Shown here in pieces: positions 8,311 to 36,149 of a stretch of 64,000 nt of DNA (the stretch's first letter is position 1; every line of letters begins with the position of its first letter). The position numbers and the translations under genes were made by a program. The stretch lies in the NCBI GenBank assembly GCA_000310025.1, contig FN649729.1:4032455-4096454 (forward strand), in the 5' to 3' direction. Under the pieces are notes generated by a model. The model was not told the origin of the DNA and did not search any database. It saw only the letters and a program-made list of their open reading frames with translations. This DNA is from Ectocarpus siliculosus (Eukaryota > Sar > Phaeophyceae > Ectocarpales > Ectocarpaceae).

Positions 8311-8321
8311 TTCCCCTTAAG

Positions 8322-8867: not shown

Positions 8868-9407
8868 CAGAATTCCCCGGTAACCTACTACACAACGAAG
8901 TGCAATCCTGATCTATTCACGAAAAAAGTATCGACTTGAAAAAATAAAACAGCGAAGCTAGCCCTGATACCGACATTTAAGATGCATTTGCCCAGGTAAC
9001 AGGTCCTCTCACCAGGTGCAATTCTGTCACTTCTACGGAAAAGTCTCGACTTGAAATATCTTTCAGAAAATAGCCGTCAAGCGACACGTGATATATGGAT
9101 CGTTTTGCCTAGAGCTATACGTACGAATGAATCACGTGCACACAACACGGGTTTTGAAAAGTCTCGACTTGATCAAGTCGAGACTTTTTCTCACGTCAGA
9201 TTTTCTGAGCCACATTCAGTCCGTGCAAAGCCCGCTGCTGTCAGCTCTTTCGGGGGCGAAAATTTGACTCAAACGTCCGCGCGCGGGATCTGATTTTGCC
9301 AAGACAAAAAACTATTTGAAATTTCAATTTCGGGAATCGTCCGAGGCTGGAAATTTTTTTTGGCCCATCCCAAAAGCATGCCAAAACATGCTGTCGTTTT
9401 TCGTCAA
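8868..9407 (-). repeat. Left arm of a long inverted repeat (about 540 bp)
   Basis: This block is the imperfect reverse complement of 33580-34110. Shared landmarks in opposite order include the anchor (8879-8892), half-sites AAAAGTMTCGACTTGAA (8924-8940 and 9039-9055), a 32-bp palindrome (9157-9188), 'GCCACATTCAGTCCGTG', 'GTCCGCGCGCGGGATCTGAT', and 'CATGCCAAAACATGCTGTCG' at the inner end. Similarity fades just beyond about 9407. Together with the right arm it encloses about 24 kb. Confidence 0.85.
9157..9188. repeat. Perfect 32-bp palindrome in left inverted-repeat arm
   Basis: A perfect palindrome centred on TGATCA, with the half AAAAGTCTCGACTTGA. The right arm carries the same palindrome with a paired change (GTGTCGAC). 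It could form a cruciform or bind a dimeric protein or recombinase. Confidence 0.9.
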
Positions 9408-9639
9408 GGTACGTGTTTTTGTGCGACTACGCTCTCCAACGACTTGAGGTCGCCAGTGACTTCGCCAGTGGCTCCCACCGCGGGTTCGAGCCAAGCAAAA
9501 ATGGTCCCACCCGGAAGTAGGGGAAGGAACAATGGGTAGGGTGTCTATCGAGAGGTCAACAGCGAGGTCAACGCAATAACTGCCCCCCCGGTGCCTGATG
9601 GTTGCAACGAACACTAGACACTCGCCTGGATCTAGTGGG

Positions 9640-9815
9640 AAAAAACTGAAGTGGCTGGCAGAGTCGGAGGAGGAGTCACTTTTTTTGGTTGAAAAAAACT
9701 GAGGTGGCCGGAAGAGTCGGCGGAGGCAGGCTGGCAGAGTCGGCGGAGGAGTCTGCGCAGGAGTCACCTTTTTTCTTGGAAAAAAACTGCAAGTGGCCGG
9801 CAGAGTCGGCGGGTA
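9640..9815 (+). repeat. Short module B array
   Basis: Repeats of 'GAAGTGGCTGGCAGAGTCGG' and 'AGGAGTCACTTTTTTTGGTT' type, the same family as at 19690-19960, 20935-21895, 34110-36130 and 39905-40250. Confidence 0.75.
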
Positions 9816-9817
9816 CA

Positions 9818-9892
9818 GGGTGTCACAAAAAAGTGTCACAAAGTGTCACAAAAGTGTCACAAAAGTGTCACACAAGTGTCACACAAGGGTGA
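9818..9892 (+). repeat. Microsatellite GTGTCACAAAA, about seven units
   Basis: Tandem units of 10-11 bp (GTGTCACAAAA with length variation), directly after the short module B array. Confidence 0.9.
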
Positions 9893-9964
9893 CCCGAATA
9901 TCATTCCCCGTTCCAGGGGTCGGGGCAAATTTGGCACAAACTTTTGCCCCTTCGCGTAACCAAA

Positions 9965-10178
9965 CACAACCACGCCGGGTTGGAGGGGAAGGAAGGCAAG
10001 GGCGAGAACAGAGACAGTCGGAGAGGGCTGTGGAGGCCTCTGCTAGTAGGAGCTGATGATTTCGCGGATGAAGCTTCTACGAGCGGTGAGAGGGTTTGAT
10101 CGGTTTCGTACGACCTGCTGCGCTCAGGCCTTTCGCTCGTTCTTGTTGGCCTCACCTCCGCTCCTCCCCGCTGTACCC
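9965..10178 (+). repeat. Dispersed repeat, first copy (partner at 18992-19236)
   Basis: The sequence from 'GTTGGAGGGGAAGGAAGGCA' through 'CGGAGAGGGC', 'CTTCTACGAGCGGTGAGAGG' and 'CAGGCCTTTCGCTCGTTC' is matched closely and in the same orientation at 18992-19236. No protein is convincing in it. Confidence 0.75.
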
Positions 10179-10330
10179 GGGAGAGGAGAGACGAAGGAGG
10201 GAAGGATGTAGTGTGTGGGCAGCTGATTTAGATGAGATATCGCGCTTTGACGCGGCTCAGTGGGCGTGGACACTGGGAGCTTGGCGGTCGAGCACGCTGC
10301 AGGGGAAAAGGTGTGCCTGTGGTTTGTGAA

Positions 10331-11673
10331 AGGGAAATAGACAAAAAAAGTGGGTATACCCACCCCTTTCTCGGACAAAAGTGGGTACTCGAAAATCCAG
10401 CGCGCGCGCACTCCATAGGCGACCCCCAAACGAACTCATAACCCCATTCTGACACCTGGGCGACACAGCCAGGGACCATACACAGCACGGGCATCGATTT
10501 TTCCCCACTTTTAGGCACATCTTTGGCCCTAATACCGCCGATGCGCGCAAGGCCTCACCAGAGTGCCCACTTGTGTCCAACATCGCGGTGGGTATACCCA
10601 CCGGCGTCAACTAATTTTTTCATGTACCCACTTGTGTCTGTATTTTGACCCACTTTTGTCCAAAATGTACCCACTTTTGTCCACTTACGGACGGGCGAAA
10701 ATCGAGCGGAAATCGACCTCCACGTCACCGCACGGCAGAACATCGAATAGCCTCGGAACGTCTCAGAACCTCCCAAAACCGTATCCATGGCATCTTTCCT
10801 ATCCATGGCTGCCGACTGCGGACCGACCACGGAAGAACATGCCAGAAACATGCCAGACCCCTTCGGAACCGGCACGGGGAGATACCCGCGGCAAGCCCGG
10901 CAAGTGGCGCACTAACGGCACGCCACAAACGAATGCGTAACACACAACGGACAACACAACCAACGGGTCGCGCATACAGAACAAAAAGACGCGCAAACAG
11001 CAACAACACGCGCAAACAGCAACAACACACACACAAAAACACCAACCACCACGACGAGTGCACACCGACTCGTCACGGCAGCAGTAGGCTTGCCGCGGGT
11101 ATCTCCCCGTGCCTGGTATCTTCCCGTGCCGGTTCCGAAGGGGTCTGGCATGTTTCTGACATGTTCTTCCTTTCGTGGTCGGTCCGCAGTCGGCAGCCAT
11201 GGATAGGAAAGATGCCATGGATACGGTTTTGGGAGGTTCTGAGACGTTCCGAGGCTATTCGATGTTCTGCCGTGCGGTGATGCGGAGGTCGATTTCTGTT
11301 CGATTTTCGCCGTCCGTAAGTGGCAGGACAAAAGTGGGTACATTTTGGACACAAGTGGGTCAAAATACAGACACAAGTGGGTACATGAAAAAATTAGTCG
11401 ACGCCGGTGGGTATACCCACCGCGATGTTGGACACAAGTGGGCACTCTGGTGAGGCCTTGCGCGCATCGGCGGTATTAGGGCCAAAGATGTGCCTAATAG
11501 TGGGAAAAAATCAATGCCCGTGCTGTGTATGGTCCCTGGCTGTGTCGCCCAGGTGTCAGAATGGGGTTATGAGTCGTTTGGGGGTCGCCTACGGAGTGCG
11601 CGCGCGCTGGATTTTCGAGTACCCACTTTTGTCCGAGAAAGGGGTGGGTGTACCCACTTGTGTCTATTTCCCT
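10331..11673. mobile_element. Foldback element: large imperfect palindrome with arms of about 570 bp
   Basis: The two halves are long inverted repeats around a spacer of about 200 bp (about 10890-11100) rich in CAACAA/ACACAC. The outer ends read AGGGAAATAGACA at 10331 and its complement ending at 11673, followed inward by a GTGGGTATACCCAC palindrome and several GTGGGTAC/GTACCCAC-TTTTGTCC motifs. The arms differ by scattered substitutions, so this is not an assembly mirror. No transposase is visible and no clear target duplication was found. Known parallel: foldback or MITE-like DNA elements. Most frames in it are mirror images of one another and are not listed. Confidence 0.8.
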
Positions 11674-14459: not shown

Positions 14460-14534
14460 GGCTTCGCTTGTGATACTAGGAACATAAAAAAAATGTGATA
14501 TATGGAACGGCCTGCTCAAAGATGGAGATGTCAC

Positions 14535-15177
14535 ACTACACAGCTACTCAGTGGGCTCTGGGAGCTTGGCCCGCGGAGAAGGGGGGTGAGATGAGTCTGT
14601 GGTTGTATGTACTCCAATTCCACAGCAGTGTTTGCCTCCCTCCGTTCGCTTTCGATTTGGCTCATGGCGACGCGTTCCCCACTGAAAGGAGGCACGCGGC
14701 GCCCTCATTACCTTGGTTCGTCTATCCTCTTGTTCCCGTGGCCGGTGCTTGAGTATTGTGCTCATATTCAACTCCAGTCACCCGCTGCTCCTGGTGCCTA
14801 ATACACAAAATGTGCGTTTGATGCCACCCCCTGTCAAACGCGTCTTTTCTGCCCCGTAGTACTACTCAAAGCGTTCAATGGCGCTTATGTTGTAAAAAGG
14901 CACGACTATTTTTGCAGCATCGTGGGCTGAAAAACGGGCACCGTCGTCAATTTGCAGACTCCATTTGGTGTTGCCATCGTAACCAAGGGTCTTGGGGAGG
15001 CCCGGGGAAATGGCAGGAGGAGCGCTGCTGGAAAAAGGGCATGGCTTGGCAGGGAGGAGCGTGGGACGGCATGGCTTGGGGAGGACCAGTGGAGAAGCGT
15101 TGACCTGGGTGAGTGTATGCTTTTCCAATCACGCCCAACGTGAGAAGAGTCCGTTCCATACAGCACAAAATATATCT
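14535..15177. other. Intergenic, no gene seen
   Basis: Short frames only. A purine-rich GGGAGGAGCG/GCATGGCTTGG stretch with small direct repeats lies at about 14990-15090. The start region of the next gene is at 15178. Confidence 0.4.
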
Positions 15178-15897
15178 ATGCTTGCTTTCAAGCCCAAGAT
15201 GCCTGGCTTTAACAAGAATAAGAAGAAGCGCAGCGAGAAAAAAAAGGCCGAGAAAAAGGAGAAGAAGAGTCTTCAAGCCGTACCACCAGCAGTGCCAGAA
15301 GGATGCATCCATCCAATGTCCAAATGCAGTAGGCTCCTCGGGGGATACCTGGTGTATGGATGTGGCTGTCCGATCACGAGGGTGACGTGTTGTAGTAACA
15401 AGCTCCCTGCCACAACCAGGGAACCACTCAGGGCATGCACTGGTTACACCTCGATAGCTGGGAGATGCCCTCACAACGTTTTGGAGAACGCCAAGTTTTA
15501 TAGAAGGACGATGGGGCTAGAACTGCGTGCTAGGGTCGGTGTCTGTGGTTTCGCCGACAGAAACGGGCATGATGTGCACATTGTTTACGGCGCATTCATC
15601 CTGATGGGGAATCAGTGGCAAGATTGTGAAAGCTTCCACGCGTGGTTGGAAGACTCAAACGGGTGTATTTACGACCACGTAGACCCGCAGACAACAGAGT
15701 TGGGGGAGATCTGCGGCGCGGACACCTCCAGGGTTGAAAAGTATCAGCGGTTTGTCGGGCTTTCTAGGGAGGATATTTTCGCAAAGTATGGAGTGTGGTA
15801 CGAGAGCCACGAGGCTGGTATGGCAACCGAAGCCAAACTCAACGCTGAGATAGATATGGGGTTCACACAGCCGTGGCCCCTCGAGTGTTTGCCGTAG
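15178..15897 (+). CDS. Cys-rich protein with HAW...D motif, possibly papain/transglutaminase-like (239 aa)
   Basis: The ATG at 15178 is preferred over an in-frame start at 14992, because the extra 62 residues are low-complexity. The N-terminus is strongly basic (KNKKKRSEKKKAEKKEKK, residues about 12-30), a likely nuclear signal. Next comes a Cys-rich block (GCIHPMSKC, YGCGCPITRVTCC). The C-terminal half has FHAWLED followed by GCIYDHVDP. A His-Ala-Trp then Asp-Pro pattern is typical of the catalytic His/Asp region of transglutaminase-like cysteine hydrolases, and a Cys in GRCPHNVLENAKFY upstream could be the partner. That is a resemblance, not a proof. The stop at 15897 is only 10 nt from the stop of the convergent RING-like gene, indicating compact gene packing. 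Confidence 0.6.
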   Translation: MLAFKPKMPGFNKNKKKRSEKKKAEKKEKKSLQAVPPAVPEGCIHPMSKCSRLLGGYLVYGCGCPITRVTCCSNKLPATTREPLRACTGYTSIAGRCPHNVLENAKFYRRTMGLELRARVGVCGFADRNGHDVHIVYGAFILMGNQWQDCESFHAWLEDSNGCIYDHVDPQTTELGEICGADTSRVEKYQRFVGLSREDIFAKYGVWYESHEAGMATEAKLNAEIDMGFTQPWPLECLP

Positions 15898-15907
15898 CAC
15901 AAGTTAA

Positions 15908-16597
15908 TTAATCAATGTGATTGTCAGCACGTTCCCTCAGTCTAGCTTCTCGTCTAGCTTCTCTCTCCTTGACCCGTTTCTCGAGCGCGTCCCTTCGCTG
16001 GTACTGCCTTTCCAAATTCCTCCAATACGGTACTCTCTCATCCAAGCACGCGGGGTGCCTACAGTCTTCGCCGAAACTCTTCTCGGATTTACATACCGGG
16101 CAACCTGCATCCTCTTTGTTGCATCGCGAACAAAGCATGGCCGTACAGTAGTCACAAAAAACTTTTTGCCACCAGCTAAACTCCGATTCCCAACAAATCG
16201 CACACGACTTGTCCATGTTCTGTCTACTAAAGTAGTTTGTCCACCACTCCACGCCGAGGCGTCTCCAAGGCTCAATCTTACGCACTACCCCGTCCCAAAT
16301 GACGTGGTGACCGGAAAAGACTGTTCCAGGATTTATGTATGCTCGCCCGACCTCTTTCTCAACCTCTGAACGCAAATACTCCTGGAACTTCGCGTGAGAA
16401 CCCTTGCCGCACGTGATGAAGGCTTTCAGCCTACTTCCAGCGCTTGCCTTGATGGCGTCTTGGACAAGGACGCCTACTTCGTCGTTGGAAGCATCTACGG
16501 GTAAAATCAAACGTTTCCAATGCCAGAAACCTGCATTCAGCAAACCACGAACAACATCCGAAGGATAGCTTTCGTCCCACCAACCATTGATCTCCAT
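15908..16597 (-). CDS. RING-like zinc-finger protein (229 aa)
   Basis: ATG at 16597, stop at 15908, no intron. Residues about 132-172 hold eight Cys in the order CAIC, 11 residues, CDYC, four residues, CSRC, six residues, CPVC, which fits two zinc ions in a RING or RING-variant finger. Known of the family: many such fingers are E3 ubiquitin ligases recruiting an E2 enzyme; others only mediate binding. The N-terminal part (residues 1-115) has no recognisable domain but resembles a small globular alpha/beta unit. The C-terminus is a basic/acidic helix (LEKRVKEREARREARLRER), likely coiled. It is convergent with the gene at 15178 and lies 93 bp downstream of the HNH gene on the same strand. Confidence 0.65.
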   Translation of the reverse strand: MEINGWWDESYPSDVVRGLLNAGFWHWKRLILPVDASNDEVGVLVQDAIKASAGSRLKAFITCGKGSHAKFQEYLRSEVEKEVGRAYINPGTVFSGHHVIWDGVVRKIEPWRRLGVEWWTNYFSRQNMDKSCAICWESEFSWWQKVFCDYCTAMLCSRCNKEDAGCPVCKSEKSFGEDCRHPACLDERVPYWRNLERQYQRRDALEKRVKEREARREARLRERADNHID

Positions 16598-16690
16598 TTT
16601 GCTTCAATGAGAGTGGCGCTCTTTACCCGAGGCAAAAGAAAAAAAAGTGGGCCCAAATACACCTGTGGGTAGTGGTGAAACCCACAAACC

Positions 16691-17908
16691 CTACACCGTA
16701 CTCAGGGCGGCATACTCTCGGCCGTCGGCTTTCCCTTCAAACTTATCGAAACGACTACAGTGAGCCCTCAACCAGCCATCATCGTACATCCTAGCCGTTG
16801 CAAATTGTTTTGGGATCAAGCTTTGGAGGCGATACTTCCTGTGCGTGCCACCCCGTTGGTAGAGATGCAGTATCTTCTTTAGGTACGCCACCAACATCGC
16901 TCTCTTGTCGTTCGTTTGAGTTCGAATTCGAACGCTGAGCCGCAAGCTGTGGACTTCATCGACCATCGACTCATACCTCGTTAGAGTATTTTGCGATAGA
17001 TCGTGCCACACAACAGTTGTCGTGAAATCCTGCATTCCTTTGAAACCCAGAAGTGTCAATATTTCTACAAGCATCTCTCCAGCCAAGATGTCGTTTACCT
17101 TCACACCCTGGTCTCCTCCAAGTGACACCATGTTCGAAAGTAGTTTTTTCCTTGTGACCTCGTTGAATCTCTTGAAGAAACAACTGTTCATGATCCGCCG
17201 CTGATGTTTTTCGAAGTACTGCACTTCTTCTCCACTGATTCTGTGAAGAAAGTATTTCTGTGCCGCATGTTTTCTGAGAAAAGCGAACTCTCTCGGCGTG
17301 GCTTTCCCGCCGACGCAAGCCCTCTTCACGTCTCGTACAATATCCTCAGATGCCCCCAGCGTGTCCATTTCCGTCATGAAGTACAGATCCTCTGTTTCGC
17401 TCCAGTCCTTTCGCCGTTTTTCCAGCTTTACTCGAACGTCCTTATCTTTCGTCCCAAGGCTGATGTTCAGGAAGTGAAGTCCTCTCAAATGTCGTAGATC
17501 ACCGGGTGAGAGCTCCTCGTGACGGCATTTCTGGTCAGCTGTGCCATCACACACGTACAGCCTATTGTCTTCACACAGTTCGGGCAGGACTGCAATGTCT
17601 TCCTCAACTATTCTTCTCTCCATGGACGATTTTGTGCGGTGGCACTGTACGCACAGTAGGTGGACATTGGACCTCTTAGTGGGCCCACCAACCTTTACTG
17701 GAATGATGTGATCACAATCACAATTCGCCGATGGAAGTATCTCGATCGGTCTCTCACAGTATGCGCACCGACCCCTCTGAGTACTGAAAAGGACATCGCG
17801 AAACGGCCTTGCAGACCTCCTTTTCGTCGATCCAAACAAGTGTTTCGGGCCAATCCAAAGAGGATGGTGCTTGCCGTCCCTGTATGTTGCTATGCGTAAG
17901 AAGCGCAT
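16691..17908 (-). CDS. HNH endonuclease-domain protein (405 aa)
   Basis: The ATG at 17908 (MRFLRIATYRDGKHHPLW) is chosen. A TTG further upstream is unlikely in a eukaryote. Residues about 43-98 form an HNH/McrA-type domain: CAYCERPIEI, then CDCDHIIPVKVGG (the DH pair carrying the metal-binding His), TKRSNVHLLCVQCHRTKS with the central Asn and the second Cys pair. The four Cys would bind structural zinc. The remaining 300 residues are charged and helical, without recognised motifs, and may bind DNA. HNH proteins are found in homing endonucleases, restriction systems, and viral and mobile elements of algae; the long extra C-terminus argues against a simple homing enzyme. The gene is intronless and compact with its RING-like neighbour downstream. 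The nuclease assignment is firm, the biological role is not. Confidence 0.8.
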   Translation of the reverse strand: MRFLRIATYRDGKHHPLWIGPKHLFGSTKRRSARPFRDVLFSTQRGRCAYCERPIEILPSANCDCDHIIPVKVGGPTKRSNVHLLCVQCHRTKSSMERRIVEEDIAVLPELCEDNRLYVCDGTADQKCRHEELSPGDLRHLRGLHFLNISLGTKDKDVRVKLEKRRKDWSETEDLYFMTEMDTLGASEDIVRDVKRACVGGKATPREFAFLRKHAAQKYFLHRISGEEVQYFEKHQRRIMNSCFFKRFNEVTRKKLLSNMVSLGGDQGVKVNDILAGEMLVEILTLLGFKGMQDFTTTVVWHDLSQNTLTRYESMVDEVHSLRLSVRIRTQTNDKRAMLVAYLKKILHLYQRGGTHRKYRLQSLIPKQFATARMYDDGWLRAHCSRFDKFEGKADGREYAALSTV

Positions 17909-18407
17909 AGTGTTTCTTTGTGACAACAATAACGAGAGTGACCGACAAACGTGTGGCTTGAACCAAATCTTTGACGTCCAGAATGTATATGTTTTGGCTA
18001 GTTCATTGAGGATATTGCCAAAAGGTGCTTCTTTGTTGTTTTTTCTCCTGACGCCCCTACCTACGTGGCGTTCTCGTCTCTTGCGTACTTCCGCTGCCTA
18101 CATGTATACCCAGAATTTGCGCAAATCGGCAATGGCGAAAACAACAAACACAAAAAAAAAAACTTTCATGATACGTGCATTACTGCAAAATCCGCGTACG
18201 TTGCGTTCTGTATTTTTCTCCCCGTGTAGTCTGTGATAACTCGCTGCTCACTACCGTTCGTTACTACCTGCAGTTCAGAAATGAGAGCGTACTCCCTTTC
18301 TCCCGCCCGAACACAAAACACCATTCGGCAGTGGTAGTGGTGACATGTGGCAGTTGGGTAAAACGTGTACTCCAGCGGGTAGACGGGCTCAGTAGGAGAC
18401 CAGGGTT
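17909..18407. other. Intergenic, no gene seen
   Basis: The upstream region of the HNH gene and the 3' flank of the next minus-strand gene. An A-run lies at about 18157-18163. No promoter element was confidently identified. Confidence 0.4.
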
Positions 18408-19689: not shown

Positions 19690-19960
19690 TTTGCGGAGGA
19701 TTCACTTTTTTTCGTGGAAAAAAGCTTAACTTAAAGTAGAAGTCTGCGGAGGAGTCATTTTATTTTCATGGGAAAAAGCTGAACAGAAACTGACGTAGCC
19801 GTCAGACTCAGCGGAGAAATCACTGTTTTTTCTCCAAAAAAACTGAGGTGGTCGGCAGAATTCGGCGGAGGAGTCGATTTTTTGTGGAAAAAGCTGAAGT
19901 TACAGTAGAAGTCTGCGGACGAGTCATTTTTTTACTTCAAAAAAACTGAAGTGGCTGGCA
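19690..19960 (+). repeat. Module B array
   Basis: Degenerate units of 'GAGTCATTTTTTT...AAAAAACTGAAGTGGC' type. It is followed by an anchor motif at 19976-19989. Confidence 0.75.
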
Positions 19961-19975
19961 GATTCAACGAACCGG

Positions 19976-19989
19976 TGTAGTAGGTTACC
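19976..19989 (+). repeat. Anchor motif TGTAGTAGGTTACC
   Basis: One of five copies (8879-8892 inverted, 19976-19989, 21909-21922, 34083-34096, 39888-39901). Each lies at a junction between repeat modules, and the outermost two enclosing copies lie at the ends of the long inverted repeat. Confidence 0.85.
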
Positions 19990-20139
19990 GGGGATTTCTG
20001 ATCCGCTACTTGGGACTTTTGGATTGCTTGAGTCCCCTTGACTCGATACCAAAGCCAGACCTGTGCAATCCGGAGGCGACCTCCGCGTCAGGCACGTCGG
20101 AGTCTCGGTTATATCTAAACTTTTTTTTTCGGGCCGACA

Positions 20140-20760
20140 ATGATAAGCGGAGTCACGGTGGGAGTCGTTTCAGGCGAAGTCACGGTCGAGTCCTGGGCCG
20201 AAATCGGTAGGAGGAGTCACGGTGGGAGTCACGGTAGGAGTATTTTGCTGGTGCCGAAAATGATACACGGTGTCACGGTAGAAGTCACCGTACATGTCAC
20301 GGTAGGAGTCATTTCAATGGTAGGTGGAGCAATGGTAGGAGTCGCGTTAGGAGTCACCGGCGGGGTCAACTATTAGAAGTCAGGGGTGGGGTCAATTCTT
20401 AGAAGTCAGGGTGGAAGCCAGCGGCGGGGTCAATTTTTAGAGGTCAGGGTGGTAGTCAGCGGTGGTGTCAACTACTAGGAGTCACCGGCGGGTCAATGAT
20501 TAGAAGTCAGTGGTGACGTCAACTATAAGAAGTCAGGGTAGAATCAGCGGCGGTGTCAATTATTAGAAGTCAGGGTGGAAGCCAGCGGCGGGGTCAATTA
20601 TTACAAGTCAGGGTGGTAGTCAGCGGTGGTGTCAACTACTAGGAGTCACCGGCGAGTCAATGATTAGAAGTCAGTGGTGACGTCAACTATAAGAAGTCAG
20701 GGTAGAAACCAGCGGCGCGGTCAATGACTAGAAGTCAGGGTGAAAGTCAGCGGTGGTGTT
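20140..20760 (+). repeat. Module D array followed by module E array
   Basis: 20140-20360 holds GTCACGGTAGGAGTC-type units. 20360-20760 holds units of about 38-40 bp, GTCAATTATTAGAAGTCAGG then GTGGAAGCCAGCGGCGGG. The same D-then-E order recurs at 36340-36710 and 40355-40695. Confidence 0.85.
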
Positions 20761-20892
20761 TAGGAAGTCTCCCTCGTGTGTGTGGGTGTGGGAATGCTGT
20801 TGCGCTGGGGTGTGTATTCGATCAGTGTGACCGTTGCTGCAGGGGGCCGTGTGCAGATACCGTCGCCAGTACCTGTAGATCAAAAAGAATTC
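20760..20892 (+). pseudogene. Orphan copy of the CRCG Cys-rich module
   Basis: Translation gives PRVCGCGNAVALGCVF, then DQCDRCCRGPC, closely matching the C-terminus of the gene at 22366-23718. No body of the gene precedes it, only repeat arrays. The DNA from 20750 to 20940 is nearly identical to 36700-36860, so both orphan tails descend from one duplicated segment. Confidence 0.65.
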
Positions 20893-20934
20893 TCATCAAA
20901 CTCACCAAGCACATGGTCAAAGACTTTTTTAAAT

Positions 20935-21895
20935 GGTTGCTGGCAGAGTCGGCAGAGGAGTCATTTTGTTGCTGGCGTAGTCGGCGGAAGAGTCATTTTT
21001 TTCAGGTCCAACAAAACTGAAGTGGCTAGAGGAGTCGGCGGAGGAGTCATTTTTTTGCAGGTCCAATAAAACTGAAGTGGCTAGAGGAGTCGGCCTAGGA
21101 GACATTTTTTTCAGGTCCAACAAAACTGAAGTGGCTAGAGGAGTCGGCGGAGGAGTCATTTTTTTCAGGTCCAACAAAACTGAAGTGGCTAGAGGAGTCG
21201 GCGGAGGAGTCATTTTTTTCAGGTCCAATAAAACTGAAGTGGCTAGAGGAGTCGGCGGAGGAATTATTTGTTTGCAGTTGAACTTGATTGAAGTTGCTGG
21301 CGGAGTCGGCCTAGGACTCATTTTTTTCAGGTCCAACAAAACTGAAGTGGCTAGAGGAGTCGGCGGAGGAGTCATTTGTTTGCAGTTGAACTTGATTGAA
21401 GTTGCTGGCGGAGTCGGCCTAGGACTCATTTTTTTCAGGTCCAACAAAACTGAAGTGGCTAGAGGAGTCGGCGGAGGAGTCATTTGTTTGCAGTTGAACT
21501 TGATTGAAGTTGCTGGCGGAGTCGGCCTAGGAGTCATTTGTTTGCAGTTGAACTTTATTGAAGTTGCTAGAGGAGTCGGCCTAGGACTCATTTTTTTCAG
21601 GTCCAACAAAACGGAAGTGGCTAGAGGAGTCGGCGGAGGAGTCATTTTTTTCAGGTCCAATAAAACTGAAGTGGCTAGAGGAGTCGGCCTAGGAGTCATT
21701 TTTTTCAGGTCCAACAAAACTGAAGTGGCTAGAGGAGTCGGCGGAGGAGTCATTTTTTTGCAGTTGAAATTGATTGAAGTTGCTGGCGGAGTCGGCCTAG
21801 GAGTCATTTTTTTGTTGAACTTGATTGAAGTTACTGGCGGAGTCGGCCTAGGAGTCATTTTTTTCAGTTGTAAAAAAACTGAAGTGGCTGGCAGA
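20935..21895 (+). repeat. Module B array, units of 54 bp and related units
   Basis: Units such as GGCTAGAGGAGTCGGCGGAG, GAGTCATTTTTTTCAGGTCC, AACAAAACTGAAGT alternate with a variant carrying TTGCAGTTGAACTTGATTGA. Because 54 is a multiple of 3, both strands stay open for about 280-320 codons, which is a by-product of the period. An anchor follows at 21909. Confidence 0.9.
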
Positions 21896-21908
21896 TTCAA
21901 CAAACCGG

Positions 21909-22250
21909 TGTAGTAGGTTACCAGGGAAATCTGATCCGCTACTTGGGACTTCTGGGTTGCTTCGGTCCCCTAGACGTCACCACCATTGAGAAATCCACGT
22001 CGAAGCCCACTGAATATTTTATGGCATTTTTTCGGTGTTCTGTTTTTGGCCCCCACCTGTGCAATATCCGGAGGCAACCTTCGCGCCGAAGCCCCCTGAA
22101 TACTTTATGGCATTTCGCGGAGGAGTCATTTCGCGGAGCAGAATAGGAATCTTTTCGCCGAAATGGTTGGCGAAGTCACGGTAGCAGTCACGGTGGGAGC
22201 TTTTTTTCTCGTGCCGCAAATGATAGATGGAGTCACGGTCGGAGTCGCGT
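21909..22250 (+). repeat. Anchor followed by modules C and D
   Basis: The anchor at 21909-21922 is followed by a shared 'CTGATCCGCTACTTGGGACT' block, two module C units (about 22000-22120), and a short module D stretch (22165-22250) just upstream of the gene at 22366. Confidence 0.8.
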
Positions 22251-22365: not shown

Positions 22366-23718
22366 ATGATCTGCAGCATTTGCTCCTGCGAGTTTTACAG
22401 CCAGCACCATCATGGAGTCCCCCTGACTATCGTGTGTCAACAGTGCGCTACCTCAAGTGACCTTGTCACCAAGACTGATGCCCTCTCAGCAGGGGCAAGC
22501 CTGTCTGATTTATACAGCATCCGTAGGCTCTACGCGCCAAATCCCCATTACAGAAACGGGGCAGACATGCAGCTCTTCATTCGTGAGGAGGTGGATGTGC
22601 TTGTGAAGAACGCAGCCGACCTTAGGCGTCGAAAAAAAGAAGAAGGTGATCACAAGAGGGCCCTATCGGAGGCGAAGCAGCAGGCTGTGAAAGAATCTCG
22701 GCTGGCATGCTTCGCAAAACGAATGCAGGCTTTCGATGATATGGTACCCACTCCTGGCCTGGTTGCGGGGGATTTTTGTTCGGTCGGGAGTAAGACCCCG
22801 AAGATTGGAGTGAGAAGCCTCCTGATCAGAAGGGCGCTGTGGAACAAGCTGTCTGGGGTTCCAGTTCCCTGGAAAGTTGTAGTGTTCGAGTGGGCGGTCA
22901 CCAACAAGAGGCTCACTTCAGATGCAGCGAGCCTGGTGGAAGGTGTCCAGCATGAAAAGCACTTGTTCGAAAAGTTTGCCAATTCCGAGGGTAACAGGAT
23001 CCTGTCCTTTCTGGACGAGGTGGATCGGTTGGTGTTGATGCATCTGAAGCCCGTTTTCACAGGGCAATTGTACGGCCTTCGCGTCCGCCAACTGTCCGGT
23101 CAGCGGGTTTATCTTTGTAACGAGGTAGCACGACTCCTGAAGCTACCCTTTGGCCGAGTACTGGCCAAATTACACGACTCCAAAAACTGCTGGATAGGGA
23201 AGTATCTATTTGTAATGCGGCCCGAGCGCGTGGCGCTAATCTTAGCACCCCATTTCCACGCTCGAACGAAGCGACAGAGGCTACTGAGGCGTGACATGGA
23301 AGAATGTTTCGAGAGGTGGGGGCTAGATTTAATGGAAGACAAGCACCCGCGAATTGATGAAGTGTGTCGCTATTTCGGGGGCGACATTGTAGACGTCGAG
23401 TTGTACACGGCGGCATGCGCTATACTGAAAGCCAAGGTGCACTACCAGCAAGCAGTCGACGCGGTAACGAAAAGAGTCATGTTCACACCCGGGGCAACAT
23501 GGAGAGAAGTGACTGAAGATCACATCAAGGAGCAGCGGGAGACGCAACTGATGAGGAAGGAGGACAAACGCTTGGACGAACATTCTGGGAGTGTCCCTCG
23601 TGTGTGTCGGTGTGGGAATCCTGCTGCGTTAGAGTGTGTGTTCGATCAATGTGGCCGTTGTTGCAGGGGGCCATGTGAAATAGATGGACAACATCGTAGT
23701 GGACCCGGCGTCTGGTGA
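22366..23718 (+). CDS. Unrecognised protein with C-terminal Cys-rich CRCG module (450 aa)
   Basis: The ATG at 22366 opens with a CxxC-type pair (MICSICSCEF, then VCQQCATSS), suggesting an N-terminal zinc site. The middle is helical, Lys/Arg-rich and intronless, with blocks such as LLIRRALWNKLSGVPVPWKVV and RVYLCNEVARLLKLPFGRVL; the latter resembles a helix-turn-helix or BRO/KilA-type DNA-binding segment (inference). The C-terminus reads PRVCRCGNPAALECVF then DQCGRCCRGPC, a probable second zinc-binding module. Two orphan copies of this module occur at 20760 and 36711. The gene ends at 23718, overlapping or abutting the start of the BRO-N-like frame. The same order, CRCG tail then BRO-N-like gene, is repeated near 36.7-38.0 kb, so the pair is probably a functional unit. 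A DNA- or RNA-binding role is likely but not demonstrated. Confidence 0.6.
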   Translation: MICSICSCEFYSQHHHGVPLTIVCQQCATSSDLVTKTDALSAGASLSDLYSIRRLYAPNPHYRNGADMQLFIREEVDVLVKNAADLRRRKKEEGDHKRALSEAKQQAVKESRLACFAKRMQAFDDMVPTPGLVAGDFCSVGSKTPKIGVRSLLIRRALWNKLSGVPVPWKVVVFEWAVTNKRLTSDAASLVEGVQHEKHLFEKFANSEGNRILSFLDEVDRLVLMHLKPVFTGQLYGLRVRQLSGQRVYLCNEVARLLKLPFGRVLAKLHDSKNCWIGKYLFVMRPERVALILAPHFHARTKRQRLLRRDMEECFERWGLDLMEDKHPRIDEVCRYFGGDIVDVELYTAACAILKAKVHYQQAVDAVTKRVMFTPGATWREVTEDHIKEQRETQLMRKEDKRLDEHSGSVPRVCRCGNPAALECVFDQCGRCCRGPCEIDGQHRSGPGVW

Positions 23719-25024
23719 TATCGGAGTGTCAAGCATGGTCCAGTGTGCCAACCCCGAAGCACACCCCGGATCTATCCTGCGGAGCGTCAACGGCGTCCTA
23801 AAAGACGTCACAAGCGTCCCGGCGATAACCAAGCGCTCGGTCAATCAGAAGTCCACCGTGGTTGCGATCTAGCCACGTGCAACTATATCCTAGACAACCT
23901 GCCCGGGAAGAAATGGGCTTCGTGGAGGCAAGAATCGGGGGAGACGTTCAAACGCTCTCTCGCCGATCGTGTCGAGCAAGTTCGTACTGGCATTTCTGGT
24001 GGTGATCCCGACGGTGCCGATGAAGAACCCAAAGAACCCGAAACCAAGGCGTCTGTGCTTGAGAAGTCGCTGAGGACAATCGGAATTGTCGGATCCATCC
24101 ACGTCGACGAGGCCTCCGGTAAAGGCTCGATTATTGATGTGATTAAGCTTCTGTGCCCCGGCGCAACGGGAGACTACGCGAAAACAGCCCTCAGCCGAGT
24201 GATAGCCAACGATCAAGACGAACAACACGAGTCGGATCAGGGGGATCCGACCTACTCAATCGCGGAACGCGTGGACTACATCCAGATCAACGGAAAAGGG
24301 CGCACCACCCCCGTGAGCGACGCCAAAACCATCACCGAAATCATATGGCTCCTTCCCGCGAGGGCCGCCAAGGAATTCCGCCGCCAGTCGGCCGAAACTA
24401 TCTGTCGCGTTCTCTCGGGGGACACCTCTATCTGCGAGGAGATCGAGTCTAGGTGTGCTCGCCTACAGGGCTCTGAGGAGGGAAGGGCCTTTCAACGCTT
24501 CGTGGGCGGTGAACCTGACGGATCGCCCGCGAAGAGGGCTCGCATCGGTCCGGAGATCAAGGAACTTGCTACTGAAGAACAATACCAGGCCTACGTGTCA
24601 TCCCAAGTGCAGCGTCACGTCGACCAAGAGACGTTTCAGGTGAATCTTCACCGTGCGAACAACGAGGTATCGCTGGTGAAAGCTGAGGTGTCGCTGGTCA
24701 TGGCCATGAAGGAAGCTTTCGAGAAGATCCACCCCCTGGACTCCAGGGGGGAAATCGAGTTGAGTGATCGCATCTTTGACAATCAGCACCGTGCCTTTAG
24801 GCGTGCTTCGGGTGATACGCATAACAACGGAACCCGTCAACCCTTGGTCGTCGCTACCCCAGCCGCGCCTACGGACCCGGGGACGTCAGCGCCGACGCCC
24901 GAGTGTCACGCCACGGTGCGCGGCGATGAAACATCGATTGCCATGGTTTCGACCGAGCTCGGTGTGAGCCTCGGTGAAAAGGCCGGTCAAGTCGGCAAGA
25001 AGATGAAAGCCCTGTACTATCTTA

Positions 25025-25389
25025 TGTTGATTGGCCCCAAGCCGAGTGCTGCTGGATGAGCACGGCTGTCCCGTTTGACAATGTGAAGAGATGGTTAAGT
25101 CTTTTTATTGGTCGTCCTCGTAGACACAAGCAACGGAAGAGAGTGGGCACCCAGGTGCATCACAAACACCGAGGCACGCGAGCAACAGTCACAAGACGCA
25201 TTCGGAACTCGGAATACATGACACCAAGGAATGCGCGACAACTTGCCAAAGATCCTACTACCGGAGATACCCCGAAGATCCAAATGACCGATGGACGGTC
25301 ACGCACTTGCGCACCTGCATAGCTCAAAACCACACATGAGTACTACCGCAATAGCCTTCGTAAGGATGGCATAATCCACCTCACGAACA
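25025..25389 (-). repeat. 3' LTR of the copia-type element
   Basis: 365 bp, TG...CA ends, apparently identical to 27999-28363, with the polypurine tract immediately to its right. Confidence 0.93.
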
Positions 25390-26710
25390 CCCTCCCTGAT
25401 TCTGTACATCATAACGAATGCTCTCAAAACCAAAGCGCTCAGGGTACTCATAGAAAACTCCAAAAAGAAACAAAAATAAAACAAACGAAGGGAAACCCGG
25501 CCACCGGATCAAAACCCTCCGCCCCCACGGGTCATCCTGCTGATTGAACTGTCAACACAATCAACACAGCAGTCACAAAGTTGCAAACCTACACGTCTAC
25601 AACTGTCAGGCATTTGTACTACCCCTTTTCAAGTAGTCCCCTCCCAGCCAACAGGATCCCTACTGTATCGAGTTGCTGTCAGCACCGCGGCGCGCCTAAG
25701 GCCACAAGCACCAATGCCAAATTGCAGCGGAAAAACGTAAAACCTAACGCTACATCGCTAAATGACATTTTTATAGAGGGCGATCAACCAAGAGGAAGAT
25801 CAAGCAGTATCTCAACCACAACGGTACCCCGCTTCGAGAGACACTGGACCTAGACATTTTTTGCTACTCCTTCACAAGTAACTCCCCTCCCAGCAACAGG
25901 ATCCCTACTGCTGTATCCAGCTGCTGTTAGCAACGGGGCGCGTCTGCAACCAACCCCGATCACCATTGTCGATCACATGACAGTGAGGGGTGCCCCCCTC
26001 GGTCTGTACATCAATGAAAGATCATATAAAAGGGCAATCAACCACATGTTAGGGGAGGGTGCCCCCTCTCAGCCTACACATCAGAGGACGATCGAAGCAG
26101 CATATCAATCACAAACAGTTCATCAACCAGCCTGCTGGTACCTGCTAATATGAGAGACGCTGGTAGCCATCTATCACGGAAGAAGGCGTCATTCATCAGC
26201 CCTCCCTGATTTCAGGCAAAATAATTCCGAACATCATCAATCAAATTGGTGTGACCGCAGTGCCCTGCGGATCACCATTCCTCAAAGTGAGACGACAACG
26301 GAATGCCACACCATCCTCAGTATTTCATCGTGCAATAAGCCTCATCATGGCTCAACCTACGCGGTTAGTTACTGAGATGCGCATGGTATACCGGACAGGC
26401 AACATCGAGTTTCGTGGACTGCGTTCGTATCCCGATCGATCACACAAGAAAAAAAAACAACGAGCGAACGGCGGAAAAGTAACAGGCCAGAAAAAATTCC
26501 CCTTTGTACTTTCGTCAGTCGTATCATCAAAATCGGCTCTTGATGGGGAAATGCCGACGAGCCGAATTGCACGCAAGGCACGAAAGCGAACGGGCGTTGA
26601 TGCACCGCTGGGAAAACAGATCTAGACAACATCAGAGTGCTTCGTATGCGACGTCCAACTCTACACCACCGACTCCAACTTCAATCGCGGCGACTGCAGT
26701 TTCAGTTCTC
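25390..26710. other. Interior of the retrotransposon without coding potential
   Basis: Between the 3' LTR and the zinc-knuckle region I find no integrase or reverse transcriptase motif on either strand. Two diverged copies of a block around 'AGTCCCCTCCCAGCCAACAG' (about 25635 and 25880) and of 'GGGTGCCCCC' (about 25987 and 26055) suggest internal duplication. Confidence 0.5.
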
Positions 26711-27955
26711 GATGGGCAGTTTTTCGCGTTGTGCCCCTTTTTTCCGCACCTCTGGCAAAGCTTCTCTGGGCATGCACTCGCATAGTGGTCACCATCACAG
26801 ACGTAGCACTTGACTCTCTTATCGCTAGCTATATTCGCCTCTTCGTAACCTCGGTTTTGTTTCGGACGTCTCTTTCCTCCCCCCCTTCCCCTCTACTGCT
26901 ACGAACGCATGATGGTTAGCTCGCCGATCACTCTTCCCCTTCTTTTCCTCCGCTTTCAGTTGCCCAGCCCGTGTGCGAAGCACTCTCAAAATCTCTTCTT
27001 CATCGAGTGTTTTCTGGGCGAGCAGCTGTTGCTTTTGAATCTCGAATTCCGGGGAAAGCGCATCGAGGAACCGCGCATACACGAGCATTTTTGGGATGGG
27101 CTGGTCGAATGCCAACTCTAGGTTAGTCACTACGGACTTGAACTCCTGGAAAAACACTCGGGGTTCCTGGTTCTTCCCTTGTTGGGCATTATAAAACTTT
27201 CCGATCAGCGAGATCTGCTCGCCGCCGGTCAAGGGGGTGAATGTTTCTTCTAACGCACGCCACGCTGCCGAGGGCCCCTTTCGATCGTACACCAGCATTT
27301 TTGTGGAGTTGTTGGATATCGCTCCGGTCAGCATCCCCCACAAATCCCGGTACATGGCTATCTCCCCTACTTCCACTCCTTGCTCTATCATGCCATCATC
27401 GTCTACGCCTAGGACCTCAATGTCTCTGCTGTCGCTCAAGGCGCGACCCATCCCACAAGTCTGAACCTGCGTAATGAAATCGTTTCGGAACATCAGCCAG
27501 TTTTTCTAGTCTCCGTTGAAGTCCAACTGTTTCAGGCGTGGGATACGGGCATGCGAGCTGAAAGCATACCGTGAAGCTTGCTCCTCTCTGCTGATTCCCT
27601 CTCGCGAGATAGCACCGTGTGGTGTAGGCTCTCGTGTTTCCGGGCCTCGCAGTCCTCTCGCTCCCTCGAGCCCTCGTCCAGTATTCGGCGCTTGGTCTAG
27701 CTGACCCGCGCCAGGGAAGGCGTGCGTCCTCCCCTGTGACTCCCCCCCGCCGCCCGCTGCGGTCGCACTTCCGGCGGGCGGTGTCCCGGGCACTAACCGG
27801 GACAAGGTGTTCATGATGCCTTCCAGTTTCTCCGTCACCATCTTCTCCATTCTGGTGCTGGCGTCGCCCACGGCGTCGTCGATGGCCGTCCTAAGCTCCT
27901 CATGAGTCGGGCCAGCCTCGCCCCCGCCAGAGTTCACAGAGTCGTTCGAAGACAT
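26711..27955 (-). pseudogene. Retrotransposon gag (UBN2/copia type) with stop and frameshift
   Basis: From an ATG at 27955 (MSSNDSVNSGGG) the frame runs through a disordered Gly/Pro/Ala-rich N-terminus to an in-frame TAG near 27510, continues in the same frame through the capsid-like part (blocks MLVYDRKGPSAAWRALEETF and LIGKFYNAQQGK), and stops at 26825. About 10-15 codons before that stop the reading must shift by one base to enter two CCHC zinc knuckles (C-x2-C-x4-H-x4-C twice, about 26711-26815). Known of the family: Ty1/copia gag forms the particle shell and binds RNA. Here two lesions would prevent full-length gag, although the LTRs are identical. The element infects nothing; it is an algal genomic retroelement. 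Confidence 0.85.
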
Positions 27956-27998
27956 GTGTGTCTGCCGCACTAGACTATGACGTTAACGCCACAAGAAG

Positions 27999-28363
27999 TG
28001 TTGATTGGCCCCAAGCCGAGTGCTGCTGGATGAGCACGGCTGTCCCGTTTGACAATGTGAAGAGATGGTTAAGTCTTTTTATTGGTCGTCCTCGTAGACA
28101 CAAGCAACGGAAGAGAGTGGGCACCCAGGTGCATCACAAACACCGAGGCACGCGAGCAACAGTCACAAGACGCATTCGGAACTCGGAATACATGACACCA
28201 AGGAATGCGCGACAACTTGCCAAAGATCCTACTACCGGAGATACCCCGAAGATCCAAATGACCGATGGACGGTCACGCACTTGCGCACCTGCATAGCTCA
28301 AAACCACACATGAGTACTACCGCAATAGCCTTCGTAAGGATGGCATAATCCACCTCACGAACA
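27999..28363 (-). repeat. 5' LTR of the copia-type element
   Basis: 365 bp with TG...CA ends, followed on the right by the TCTTA target duplication (28364-28368). Confidence 0.93.
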
Positions 28364-28448
28364 TCTTACGTACGGCAGCGTGGCAAGTGCCAACATCCCC
28401 AAGCGGACTGCCACCTTTAGAGGAAAGCAGTTTCGTGAAACGCATTAA

Positions 28449-29769: not shown

Positions 29770-29844
29770 GTGTATGCTGGCGTTGTATGCGTTGTGTGCT
29801 CGAGTGTCTCGGCTTGTGTTTGTGGAAGAGATAGCCCGGAGAGG

Positions 29845-30062
29845 TCGCCGAAGACGTCGCCGAAGAGGTCGCTGAGGAAGTCGCCGGAGATGTCGCCGAG
29901 TCGGTCTAAAACAAATATCAGAGTAACACAAATCAACAACCACAACAACTACCTAGTGGCCTTCTTTTTGATGTGGTTTGCCGAAGTCGCCGAAGAAGTC
30001 GCCGAAGAAGTCGCCGAAGAAGTCGCCGAAAGAGTCTACAGAGGAGTCGCCAAAGAACTCGT
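29845..30062 (+). repeat. GTCGCCGAAGAA tandem repeat
   Basis: Units of 12 bp (GTCGCCGAAGAA) are perfect at about 29986-30035 and degenerate at 29845-29900. They encode VAEEVAEE in one frame (29770-30129), but the surrounding sequence does not look like a protein. Confidence 0.75.
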
Positions 30063-30254
30063 CGAGAACCCCGACTACTATATTTACTACCAAGTCAACA
30101 CGATGAACCACCAATTCTACTACGCTTAAAAGTGAACTAAAGCGCTACCCCTCAGTTTCGCCCCTACTGTCAACGATATATGCCGACGCTTCTGTTCAAG
30201 TCCACTACAAATCCTTAACGGTCCACTACAAATCCTTAACGGACGTCGCTCCAC

Positions 30255-30835
30255 CCGAACGTCGATCCACCTGAGAGTATTGGGAAGGCAAGGGGAGGGG
30301 AGAACGAAGGATAGGTCAAGCGTAGTGACGGCATTTCAATGGCGTGCGCGATATTTATTTTTTTTGCAAACTGGGAGGGAAAAGACACGGCAACAACCTA
30401 GCCACAGCAGTCCGACGGCGTGCTGCCCGGCGGGTCGACGTCGTTTTACCTGAGAGTATTGGAAAGGCAAGGGGAGGGGAGAACGAAGGATAGGTCAAGC
30501 GTAGTGACGGCATTTCAATGACGTGCAATGGCGTGCGTGATAACGTTTGTCTTTGCGAAATGGGAGGGAATAGACACACAACAAACGAACCCCAGCCTTG
30601 GTCGGCGGGTTGACGTCGCGTCCCCTGAGGATTGAGAAGGCAACGGGAAAGGGAGAACGAAAGGATGGGTCAAGTGTAGTGACGGCATTTCAGTGGGGTG
30701 CGCAAATTGGGAGGGCAACGATAACAAATGGACCCCAAGAGCCTCCCCATTCTTCACCAACAAAGAACGGCAAGGAGGGAATAGTTAAAGGGTCGTTCAC
30801 GTAGTCAAGGCATCTCACGTAACGTGCGTTTTTTC
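30255..30835 (+). repeat. Three to four degenerate direct repeats of about 180 bp
   Basis: The block CCTGAGAGTATTGGGAAGGC...GGGAGAACGAAGGATAGGTC...GTAGTGACGGCATTTCA recurs at about 30270, 30450 and 30627, with a worn fourth copy near 30760-30830. Confidence 0.75.
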
Positions 30836-30889
30836 TAGTATGGATTATCTGTACAGAGTTTGGCGCCCATCCTTGATAGGAGTACACTT

Positions 30890-31015
30890 AGACAGCACCC
30901 GGACGCCCAGCCTACTCGAACCCACACTGAAGTTTCGACAGCACACGATTGCCAGGCCTACTCGGATCCGCACCGAAGTTTATAGAGCACACGAGCGCCC
31001 AGCCTACTTGAACCC
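30890..31015 (+). repeat. Three units of about 50 bp
   Basis: Units of 'GCCCAGCCTACTCGAACCCA' followed by 'CACTGAAGTTT.GACAGCACACGA', three times with substitutions. Confidence 0.7.
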
Positions 31016-33579
31016 ACGTCCGAGATTGCACATCATGCTCGTGTTTGTGGGGACGAAAAAAGATGTTCAAGCGTCGTCCGCAGATGCCTTGATTTCTTTC
31101 AACAATCCACGGAGGGAAACAAGGGCACGCACCGAGACAAAACAAAAAAGGCAACAATGGCACAAGCCAAAACAGTGTCGATAAATCATGCACACATGGG
31201 TTGAGACATTCTCGCATCTGGCGATATCTGACGTAGTGTGCATTGGATGGGGGTTGGTCTACGCTTGTATAAACTTGGGCAAGCCTGGCGGGAAACTGGT
31301 GTGAAAAAGGCGGGGAAAAGGCGGGGAAAAGGCGGGGAATTACGACGGAAATAGCAGGCCATGTGTTTGCGCTCACATCAAGCCTCTGCGATTTCTATCT
31401 CATGCGCGCTCTATCTCACCTAGCAATCCTTATAGCGGTGCGAGGAAGTCGAGAAGGGTCCCGGTGGGGTGGGGAGTCAAGCCTTGCATGCGTCTTTGCT
31501 GGATATCACCGGGGGAAAACGTGACGAAGCAAAGGCCGAAAAAAAAATGTGAGCAATCACGAAAAATGCGTCAGCGGAGAATAATAGCGTGCTGTCACAC
31601 ACACGAGGATCCACCTGGTTCCTCCTGGCATGATCCAGTTTTTCCCCTCTGATGTGTGGATTAACATAACTTGCTAGCTCTAACGCTTTCATACTGCTGT
31701 GGGACTGCTGTCAGCCGGTGCACCTTCCTCGTTCTCTCTTATCACGCGTTCTCTCCCTCCGTTTGGCGTGTTTTCAGCATGTGCGTCTCGGATGTGTTGC
31801 GCATTTCTACGGAGGGGGAGACAAACGAGGACACGCCTCACACACAAACACACACCCATGGGGACTGTCTCTTGTGTATGTCCTTGGCATCTACCTGGCT
31901 ATCTCTCTCTCTCTCTCTCTCTCTCACTCTACCTGCCTCCTTCCTCGGTGCTTGTTTGGGCCGCATTTTTTCGACCGTGATGGTACACATCTCTGCTGGG
32001 GCTCAAAATACGTACATGCACACGCACGTACCCTCATGTCTCACCTGTCTGCCGATGGTGCCTGTGTGCCGTGTACTCCTCCTGTGGGGTGGTGTGTGTG
32101 TGGGGTGTCGGGGGTGTGGGGGGTGTGCTGGTGCGCGCTTGCTTGAAGCATGGATCGTTCGAAACCTTTTTCAGCATGTTTTGCGGGGACAGGGGATGCT
32201 TGAAGCTGAACGGTAACATACACTGCAGAACCAAAAAAACGATTCAATAGTTCGCCAGAGACGTGGTGTAGGTGCCATGAACCCTCGTGTGCTGTGTACA
32301 CCTCATTCTCGTGTGGTTGTTCACCTCCGTGTGCATCCTACGGGACGTACCAATCGTTTCATCTCCAGCCGTGGACGCGCGAGATCAGCATTCCCGAAAA
32401 AAAAAGAAAAAAAAATAGAGGAAAATAGCTTCACCGGATTTGTGGGGGACCCGCTTGGAAAAAAAAATGACCACCCTTGCTGTAAAGTTTGTTTCGCGGT
32501 CGGGCCCCTGGTGCCCGGAGACGATCTCCCCAGCACGCGATTCGACACACATTACCATGGCTAGACCGGACTGGAAACCGAGAACCGACGGAAGGCCGCT
32601 GGTGAGTGGTACGCATTAGGTCTGATATTAGCTCTGATACTGGTCTACTTGTATCGACCTGCGCCTCACACATACAGCGTTCCTTTCAAACAGTCCAGTT
32701 CGTTAGTGAGAGACTGAAGCTGAAGCTCTCGTATCACGTACCAGGGCAAGCACACAAAGAGGCGTTGGCGACAGAGGCAAAACAGAAAGGTGCACCGAGC
32801 TGCTGCTGCTACTGCTGCTGCTGCTGAAGAACATCCACACGGTGCTGCTCCTGGCGCTGCTGCTGCTGCTGCTGCTGAGGGGGTGGGGCATCCACACGAT
32901 GCTGCTGCTACCGACGCATCGGCGCCGTTGGGTGACACCACCGAAACGGATTCTGACCGGATATCTTCCGATGAGGAGACGGAGGGCCCGGGCATGGAAG
33001 AGGACGAGGATGTTGACGCAAAGGGTAGGTGTTTCTTGCTTGGTTGCCGTTGTTAAAGAAGTGTGTGTGCTGAGAGCAAATCTGATTCTTCTCCCTGTCT
33101 ACAAAGTGCACCTATTCCTTGCCCTGCTCGGTTTCCGTTGTTACAGGGTCTACCGCGCCGTTGGTGTAAACGCCGAGAATAAATTCTCGGAGGAGGAGGA
33201 GAGGCAAACACGAGCGGACATTTCCAAGAAGATGACTGCTGCCTTTGAAATTCGAGGAGATACATTACAGTACACAAGCACCGTGTTGTTCTAGAAGGCG
33301 AAAAAGAATTATATCAAAGACTTTAATCGTGTTGAAAGAAATGGTCCAACCCATGCTTGGGGCCACCAGCGAGGTCAATGGTCCACTCGGAAGAGGAAAA
33401 ACATAGATCTCAGATTGGAGGCAACCGCGAGGTCTTCTTCTCGAGGAAAAATTGTCCCACCTGGAAGACAAAACGGTAGTCAGACCCGCGGTTGGCGTCA
33501 GCCATAGGTCACCATCCTCAGAAAATGGTCCCACCCGGAAGAAACTGGTCAAACTTGGTAGTCGGAATAAGCGCGTCTC
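31016..33579. other. No gene supported; simple repeats
   Basis: It contains AAAAGGCGGGG x3 (about 31308-31336), a CT run (31903-31925), a GTGTGGGG-rich patch (about 32090-32130), and CTG/GCTG triplet runs (about 32800-32880) that are Ala/Ser-coding in various frames. 33340-33540 holds diverged single relatives of the 53-bp minisatellite. None of the frames shows a recognisable domain. Confidence 0.45.
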
Positions 33580-34110
33580 GACCAAAAACGACAGCATGTT
33601 TTGGCATGCTCTCGGGATGGGCCAAAAATTTTTTCCAGCCTCGGACGATTCCCGAAATTGAAATTCAAAAAAGTTTTTTGTCTGGGCAAAATCAGATCCC
33701 GCGCGCGGACGTTTGAGTCAACTTTTTGCCTCCGAAAGAGCTGACAGCAGCGGGCTTTTCACGGACTGAATGTGGCTCAGAAAACCTGACGTGAGAAAAA
33801 GTGTCGACTTGATCAAGTCGACACTTTTCAAATCTCGCACCGTGTGCACATGATTCGTGAGTATAGCTCTAGGTAATACAACCCATGTGCCACGCGTCGC
33901 TTGACGGCATTTTTCTGCGAAATATTTCAAGTCGAGACTTTTTCGTGAAGTGAATGGATTGCAAAAACCGAGAGGACCTGTTCTCTGGGCAAATGTAGCT
34001 GCAGTGTCGAAATCATGGTTTTGTGTTCGAAAATATTTCAAGTCGAGACTTTTCGTGTATCTAAGTGGATTGCGCTTCGTTGTGTAGTAGGTTACCAGGG
34101 AATTCTTGCT
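33580..34110 (+). repeat. Right arm of the long inverted repeat
   Basis: Imperfect reverse complement of 8868-9407. It holds the 32-bp palindrome (33797-33828), half-sites at 33926-33942 and 34037-34053, and the anchor at 34083-34096. A partial third copy of the outer end lies at 39838-39905. Confidence 0.85.
33797..33828. repeat. Perfect 32-bp palindrome in right arm, covarying with the left one
   Basis: Half-site AAAAGTGTCGACTTGA around TGATCA. Relative to the left copy both symmetric positions have changed (C to G and G to C), so pairing is kept. Confidence 0.9.
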
Positions 34111-36130: not shown

Positions 36131-36149
36131 GGAAAAAAGCTGAAGTGGT

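Follow-up and report, generated by a model that had tools for sequence, protein, structure and literature searches.

A decayed phaeovirus fragment as the probable origin of a repeat-rich island in an Ectocarpus siliculosus chromosome

Introduction

How did some 24 kb of compact genes come to lie between two long inverted repeats in the chromosome of a brown alga, and are those repeats the ends of the element that brought the genes there? The question is raised by a stretch of the Ectocarpus siliculosus genome (GenBank assembly GCA_000310025.1, contig FN649729.1; C4:4032455-4096454), the whole 64,000 nucleotides of which are called the window here, with positions counted from its first letter. 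An initial annotation, made from the letters alone, had described an island of viral or mobile-type genes enclosed by the inverted repeats (the arms) and later invaded by other elements. We propose that the part of the window running from about 8.1 kb to 40.6 kb or beyond is probably a transposon-invaded fragment of a phaeovirus-type giant virus (Nucleocytoviricota), a partial phaeoviral insertion of about 32 kb in which the arms form a repeat block internal to the viral genome. Ectocarpus genomes are described in several published accounts (PMC13236599, PMC2373305, PMC12993054, PMC11541908) as carrying phaeovirus proviruses together with smaller stretches of viral DNA.

Results

The viral origin suspected at the outset is supported by two phaeoviral gene families: EsV-1-210/211, with one copy between the arms and one outside them, and EsV-1-191. 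The outer copy of the former is an open reading frame (ORF) of 354 amino acids (36932-37996, plus strand); among its 68 homologues, three carry the name Feldmannia species virus (FsV) and one is labelled an EsV-1-210/211 paralog. Its structure model (mean pLDDT 76.0, pTM 0.39) matched FsV B5LWM3 (E 4.6e-36), EsV-1-211 (E 6.2e-20) and also FirrV-1 proteins in BFVD. In a tree of 40 rows, made up of 36 of the 68 homologues and four genome pieces, it grouped with two FsV proteins in a clade of 19 rows (98/97), and a copy from contig C16 (P0037) belonged to a separate clade of 16 rows (98/94). The copy between the arms (23743-25024, plus strand) is interrupted by a long terminal repeat (LTR) element; in the tree its partner is another C16 copy (L009), and the long branches leave its placement unsure. 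A genome search found 19 matches to the family, two in the window and 17 on C16, C179, C476, C201, C274 and C2. The label 'BRO-N-like' was not confirmed by Pfam, as none of 32 family members matched Bro-N at E<=0.01; the 36932-37996 model gave weak Foldseek matches to Bro-N/antirepressor proteins (E 0.002-0.4).

The EsV-1-191 relative is a protein of 450 amino acids (22366-23718, plus strand) that had been listed as a 'CRCG' protein, and its open reading frame is confirmed. It has 19 homologues and matched EsV-1-191 itself in BFVD (E 1e-14). Its N-terminal part appears, from a sequence-profile match and a Cys4 pattern, to be an XPA/RAD14-like domain. All nine PDB matches of the family profile were to XPA/RAD14 (best 4.3e-6), Pfam XPA_C was found at E<=0.01 in 16 of 20 family members, and C3, C6, C24 and C27 are nearly invariant. 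The window protein on its own scored 20.1 bits against XPA_C, below the cut-off of 25, and two more distant relatives on C16, searched singly, gave no XPA match. The likeness to the XPA/RAD14 nucleotide excision repair proteins is one of this N-terminal Cys4 sequence domain, whereas the other ~330 residues are not XPA and are of a family in which EsV-1-191 is also found. We found no account of an XPA/RAD14-like domain in a giant-virus protein family in the literature searched. Two remnants of the tail of a gene of this type occur, at 20781-20840 and 36729-36788.

The arms are, as first described, imperfect inverted copies of ~540 bp. The left arm (8869-9430, plus strand) aligns with the reverse complement of the right arm (33558-34106, minus strand) at 83% identity over 564 columns (E 7e-161), with a score of 636 against a top score of 29 among 50 shuffles. 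A search of the 189-Mb assembly with the arms, which passes over very common words, returned five rows, all at this locus: the two arms, two 32-bp matches at the palindromes described below, and a 71-bp piece at 39841-39911 (minus strand). The arms are thus not the widely dispersed independent repeats that had been named beforehand as a finding against an arm-bounded unit. The 71-bp piece is a third, partial arm copy that shares the outer boundary of the right arm, and this boundary is duplicated at 39.9 kb together with the adjoining repeat. Conservation between the two arms is uneven, with 220 matches, 56 substitutions and 14 gaps on the outer side of the palindrome and 202 matches, 15 substitutions and two gaps on the inner side (Fisher p 2.7e-5), a pattern that could result from constraint or gene conversion.

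Each arm holds a perfect palindrome of 32 bp (9157-9188 on the left, 33797-33828 on the right) which consists of two 16-bp motifs, AAAAGTCTCGACTTGA, head to head; in 20 Markov controls no palindrome exceeded 22 bp. Between the arms, the palindrome differs at two positions that are mirror-placed and complementary, an outcome with a chance of ~1% given two substitutions. The motif is present in each arm at a spacing of 111-118 bp. With up to three mismatches it occurs nine times in the window against 0.75 expected; genome-wide, all six exact copies lie inside the window, as do nine of the 19 copies with at most one mismatch, the reversed control giving three. The palindrome and its spaced half-sites suggest a replication or end-forming signal, and with both a palindrome and iterons the arm block is most likely a protein-binding element of that kind. 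No perfect palindrome longer than 18 bp was seen in 30 kb of the provirus region of C16, where half of one 10-kb piece was masked. We note that C16:4605435-4606317 (L074 5435-6317) contains 11 clustered palindromes of the CTTCCATGGAAG type at up to two mismatches, a type absent from four other C16/C179 stretches examined and found twice in the whole window; the cluster may represent a repeat or linearisation region belonging to that provirus itself.

Three tandem-repeat families of ~53, 89 and 164 bp have members both between the arms and beyond them. Outside the left arm are 89-bp repeats at 8319-8801 on the minus strand, the opposite strand to that of the same family outside the right arm (36155-36330). 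The remaining blocks are on the plus strand: a short one of the ~53-bp minisatellite, on the inner side of the left arm (9631-9812); minisatellite, 164-bp and 89-bp arrays upstream of the EsV-1-191 relative (19693-22115), which include the first gene-tail remnant; an array of the ~53-bp minisatellite immediately beyond the right arm (34113-36148); 89-bp and 164-bp arrays (36155-36853) that include the second remnant; and a third minisatellite, 89-bp and 164-bp module at 39954-40712. When the repeats of 34107-36930 were searched against the genome, all 17 matches fell at 8128-40637 of the window. The initial annotation had therefore misplaced the boundary in taking the inverted repeats as the ends of the island, since private repeats related to those within, and an intact second gene of a viral family (36932-37996), lie beyond them. 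A scan within 6 bp of either arm end found no target-site duplication of 5-12 bp.

An ORF of 405 amino acids at 43221-44438 has one other copy found in the genome, on C267 (86% over 181 residues, with one stop), so that the island may or may not extend past 40.7 kb. Guanine-plus-cytosine content, which ranges from 0.47 to 0.63 in 1-kb steps with no clear break at the island, is uninformative on its origin. Other repeats in this part of the window are tandem repeats of 12 and 9 bp within open frames (45022-45297 and 41813-42010) and a 266-bp direct duplication (47038-48205; 99%, starts 0.9 kb apart).

The wider gene content was assessed from 125 stop-to-stop ORFs of at least 100 amino acids between 8.0 and 45.6 kb (Pfam, E<=0.001). 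These gave matches to HNH, ankyrin, XPA_C, one Yae1_N and collagen-like repeats, but none to a transposase, integrase, polymerase or capsid, in agreement with the earlier statement that neither a transposase nor an integrase could be recognised. Nor did the island ORFs of this size match a tyrosine recombinase or a telomere resolvase; resolvase matches in the genome were on C16 and, under the cut-off, on C271, and C16 is the sole contig with a Capsid_NCLDV match. The predicted HNH endonuclease (412 amino acids, 16691-17929, minus strand) was upheld by Pfam HNH at 1e-10, and its HNH region has six other genome matches, of which the two on C16 and the one on C179 are near 210/211-type genes and the others are on C3, C15 and C33. 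The cysteine-rich 'HAW' protein (301 amino acids, 14992-15897, plus strand) has an open frame; elsewhere in the genome it is matched four times, at C16:4312352 (48%), twice on C201 and once on C2. The HNH, HAW, 'CRCG' and 210/211-type genes each have relatives within C16:4309-4327 kb, and it is solely through the location of such relatives that the HNH and HAW genes are tied to phaeoviruses. For the 229-amino-acid ORF between them (15908-16597, minus strand) the 'RING-like' label was not confirmed: no Pfam or PHROGs family and no second copy in the genome was found. An ankyrin-repeat ORF of 369 amino acids (38446-39555) lies beside the viral gene at 36932-37996; passages in PMC2373305 report viral pieces with repeats, and ankyrin remnants near them, in Ectocarpus chromosomes.

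Later invasion by other elements, as had been suggested, is evident at two places. A copia-type LTR element (25025-28363) splits the first 210/211-family gene; its 365-bp LTRs are 100% identical, which indicates that it is very young, and it has a 5-bp target-site duplication (TCTTA), a gag-like ORF on the minus strand with a weak Pfam match (0.0023) and no recognised pol. At ~10331-11673 lies a fold-back element with arms 95% complementary, a member of a dispersed host family of which at least 28 further copies of nearly full length (86-99%) are present across the genome, 40 of 136 candidates having been scored. A further dispersed element of ~1.8 kb, flanked by minisatellite, is found at 4135-5940, and a 90% copy of much of its length is present at C16:4592208-4593573, in the provirus region.

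Discussion

The island resembles the phaeovirus endogenous viral elements (EVEs) of Ectocarpus in its EsV-1/FsV gene families, its compact genes and its repeat-separated gene blocks, and the EsV-1 genome is itself described, in parts of PMC2373305, as dense gene islands between large repeat regions with inverted repeats at the ends. It differs from them in size, complete published elements being 288-407 kb (PMC13236599), and in yielding no match to a capsid, polymerase, tyrosine recombinase or resolvase. Phaeovirus EVEs are also marked by CC host-virus junctions with attP inverted repeats, and such attachment ends were not located here. We class it as a fragment and not as a complete element because the capsid and polymerase hallmark genes were not found. 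The absence of introns, to which the initial annotation had drawn attention, is weak evidence of viral origin because some published EVE genes contain introns (PMC13236599). A number of results weigh against a viral fragment. Besides the missing hallmark genes, no viral gene was identified in the stretch from 28.4 to 33.5 kb, viral contigs scanned for members of the 210/211 family gave no match, and a search for the palindrome in IMG/VR did not find it. The HNH protein has two database homologues, neither of them named (the best 88%, to P0001), and no other phaeoviral gene was seen on C3, C15 and C33, which carry three of its genomic relatives. As no viral hallmark gene is present, the island could be a separate element that carries phaeovirus-like accessory genes.

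One explanation for the arms is that they are the terminal inverted repeats of a self-contained mobile or linear element of ~25 kb with phaeovirus-like cargo, the flanking repeats having been gained separately. Long inverted arms at this locus only, with viral-type genes between them, would fit this model, but the locus-private repeats outside both arms, the second occurrence of the right-arm boundary, the lack of a target-site duplication of 5-12 bp and of a recognisable transposase or integrase in ORFs of at least 100 amino acids, and the single occurrence of the unit make it unlikely; for these reasons, and with no polymerase or capsid domain found, the 24-kb arm-to-arm unit is probably not self-contained. 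Polinton/Maverick elements are recognised by a protein-primed polymerase, a retroviral-type integrase and capsid genes, and are not supported, as none of the 125 ORFs gave a Pfam match to these hallmarks. A DNA transposon or an insertion of the punuivirus type is not supported on the same evidence as for the arm-bounded unit; punuivirus-type insertions also have long inverted repeats around giant-virus-like genes, but in the published description these are terminal and accompanied by a target-site duplication (PMC13236599), whereas neither a duplication nor an integrase was found here. Even less expected is an inverted segmental duplication born in the host that captured viral genes. Host elements do sit within and beside the region, and base composition is not clearly distinct from the flanks; however, host elements are dispersed whereas the arms and tandem repeats are found nowhere else in the genome, and phaeoviral gene families occur at two places across the segment, so that this origin seems very improbable. 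An assembly artefact, which a region so rich in repeats might invite, is extremely improbable: with 17% divergence between the arms and a different flank on each, they are not a mis-joined duplicate.

A more specific possibility is that the arms are phaeoviral telomere-resolution sites (telRL-like), at which a resolvase would cut the palindromes and seal the hairpins, the 24.6-kb stretch between the palindromes being, or deriving from, a linear molecule with hairpin ends or an intermediate of replication. The idea overlaps with the fragment interpretation, giving the same virus a more specific function, and the probabilities expressed here do not sum to one. The perfect palindrome of each arm, the mirror symmetry of the inter-arm differences and the half-site copies speak for it, and PMC13236599 describes phaeovirus insertions in which a telRL-like palindrome is present and the telomere resolvase is universally conserved. 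Compared by description, the EsV-1 terminal inverted repeats and telRL share with the arms the combination of inverted repeats and palindrome in a phaeoviral context, but they present one junction where we see two complete palindromes 24.6 kb apart. Both palindrome halves are present in each arm, unlike in a resolved telomere, the spaced direct half-sites would fit an origin equally well, no resolvase match lies in the island, and the 30 kb of the C16 provirus region, with half of one 10-kb piece masked, showed no perfect palindrome over 18 bp. We consider this function doubtful. It is rather more of a stretch to suppose that the arms represent the duplication of a phaeoviral signal for end formation or replication and that the 24.6-kb segment is derived from a linear, hairpin-ended replicon, sub-genomic in size, of an FsV-like virus, either a giant-virus satellite or a defective minichromosome fixed in the host chromosome, and we hold this to be quite unlikely.

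Under the interpretation that we favour, that of a decayed phaeoviral fragment, the virus would have entered by the tyrosine-recombinase route published for phaeoviruses, and most of its genome would have been lost afterwards. The arms would be two copies of an internal viral block, with iteron-like half-sites around a perfect palindrome, set among intergenic repeat arrays and brought into inverted placement by duplication or rearrangement inside the viral genome. Such a block would most likely have served viral DNA replication or end formation rather than forming the terminal inverted repeats of a 24-kb mobile unit.

If so, what is left of an inserted giant virus can be a small remnant, rich in repeats, in which the internal repeats may be mistaken for transposon ends. 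The protein at 22366-23718 points to a giant-virus protein family with a putative XPA/RAD14-like domain, and the arms provide a candidate element, combining a palindrome with iterons, that represents the Feldmannia-virus side of the phaeoviruses and is directly comparable with the published telRL site.

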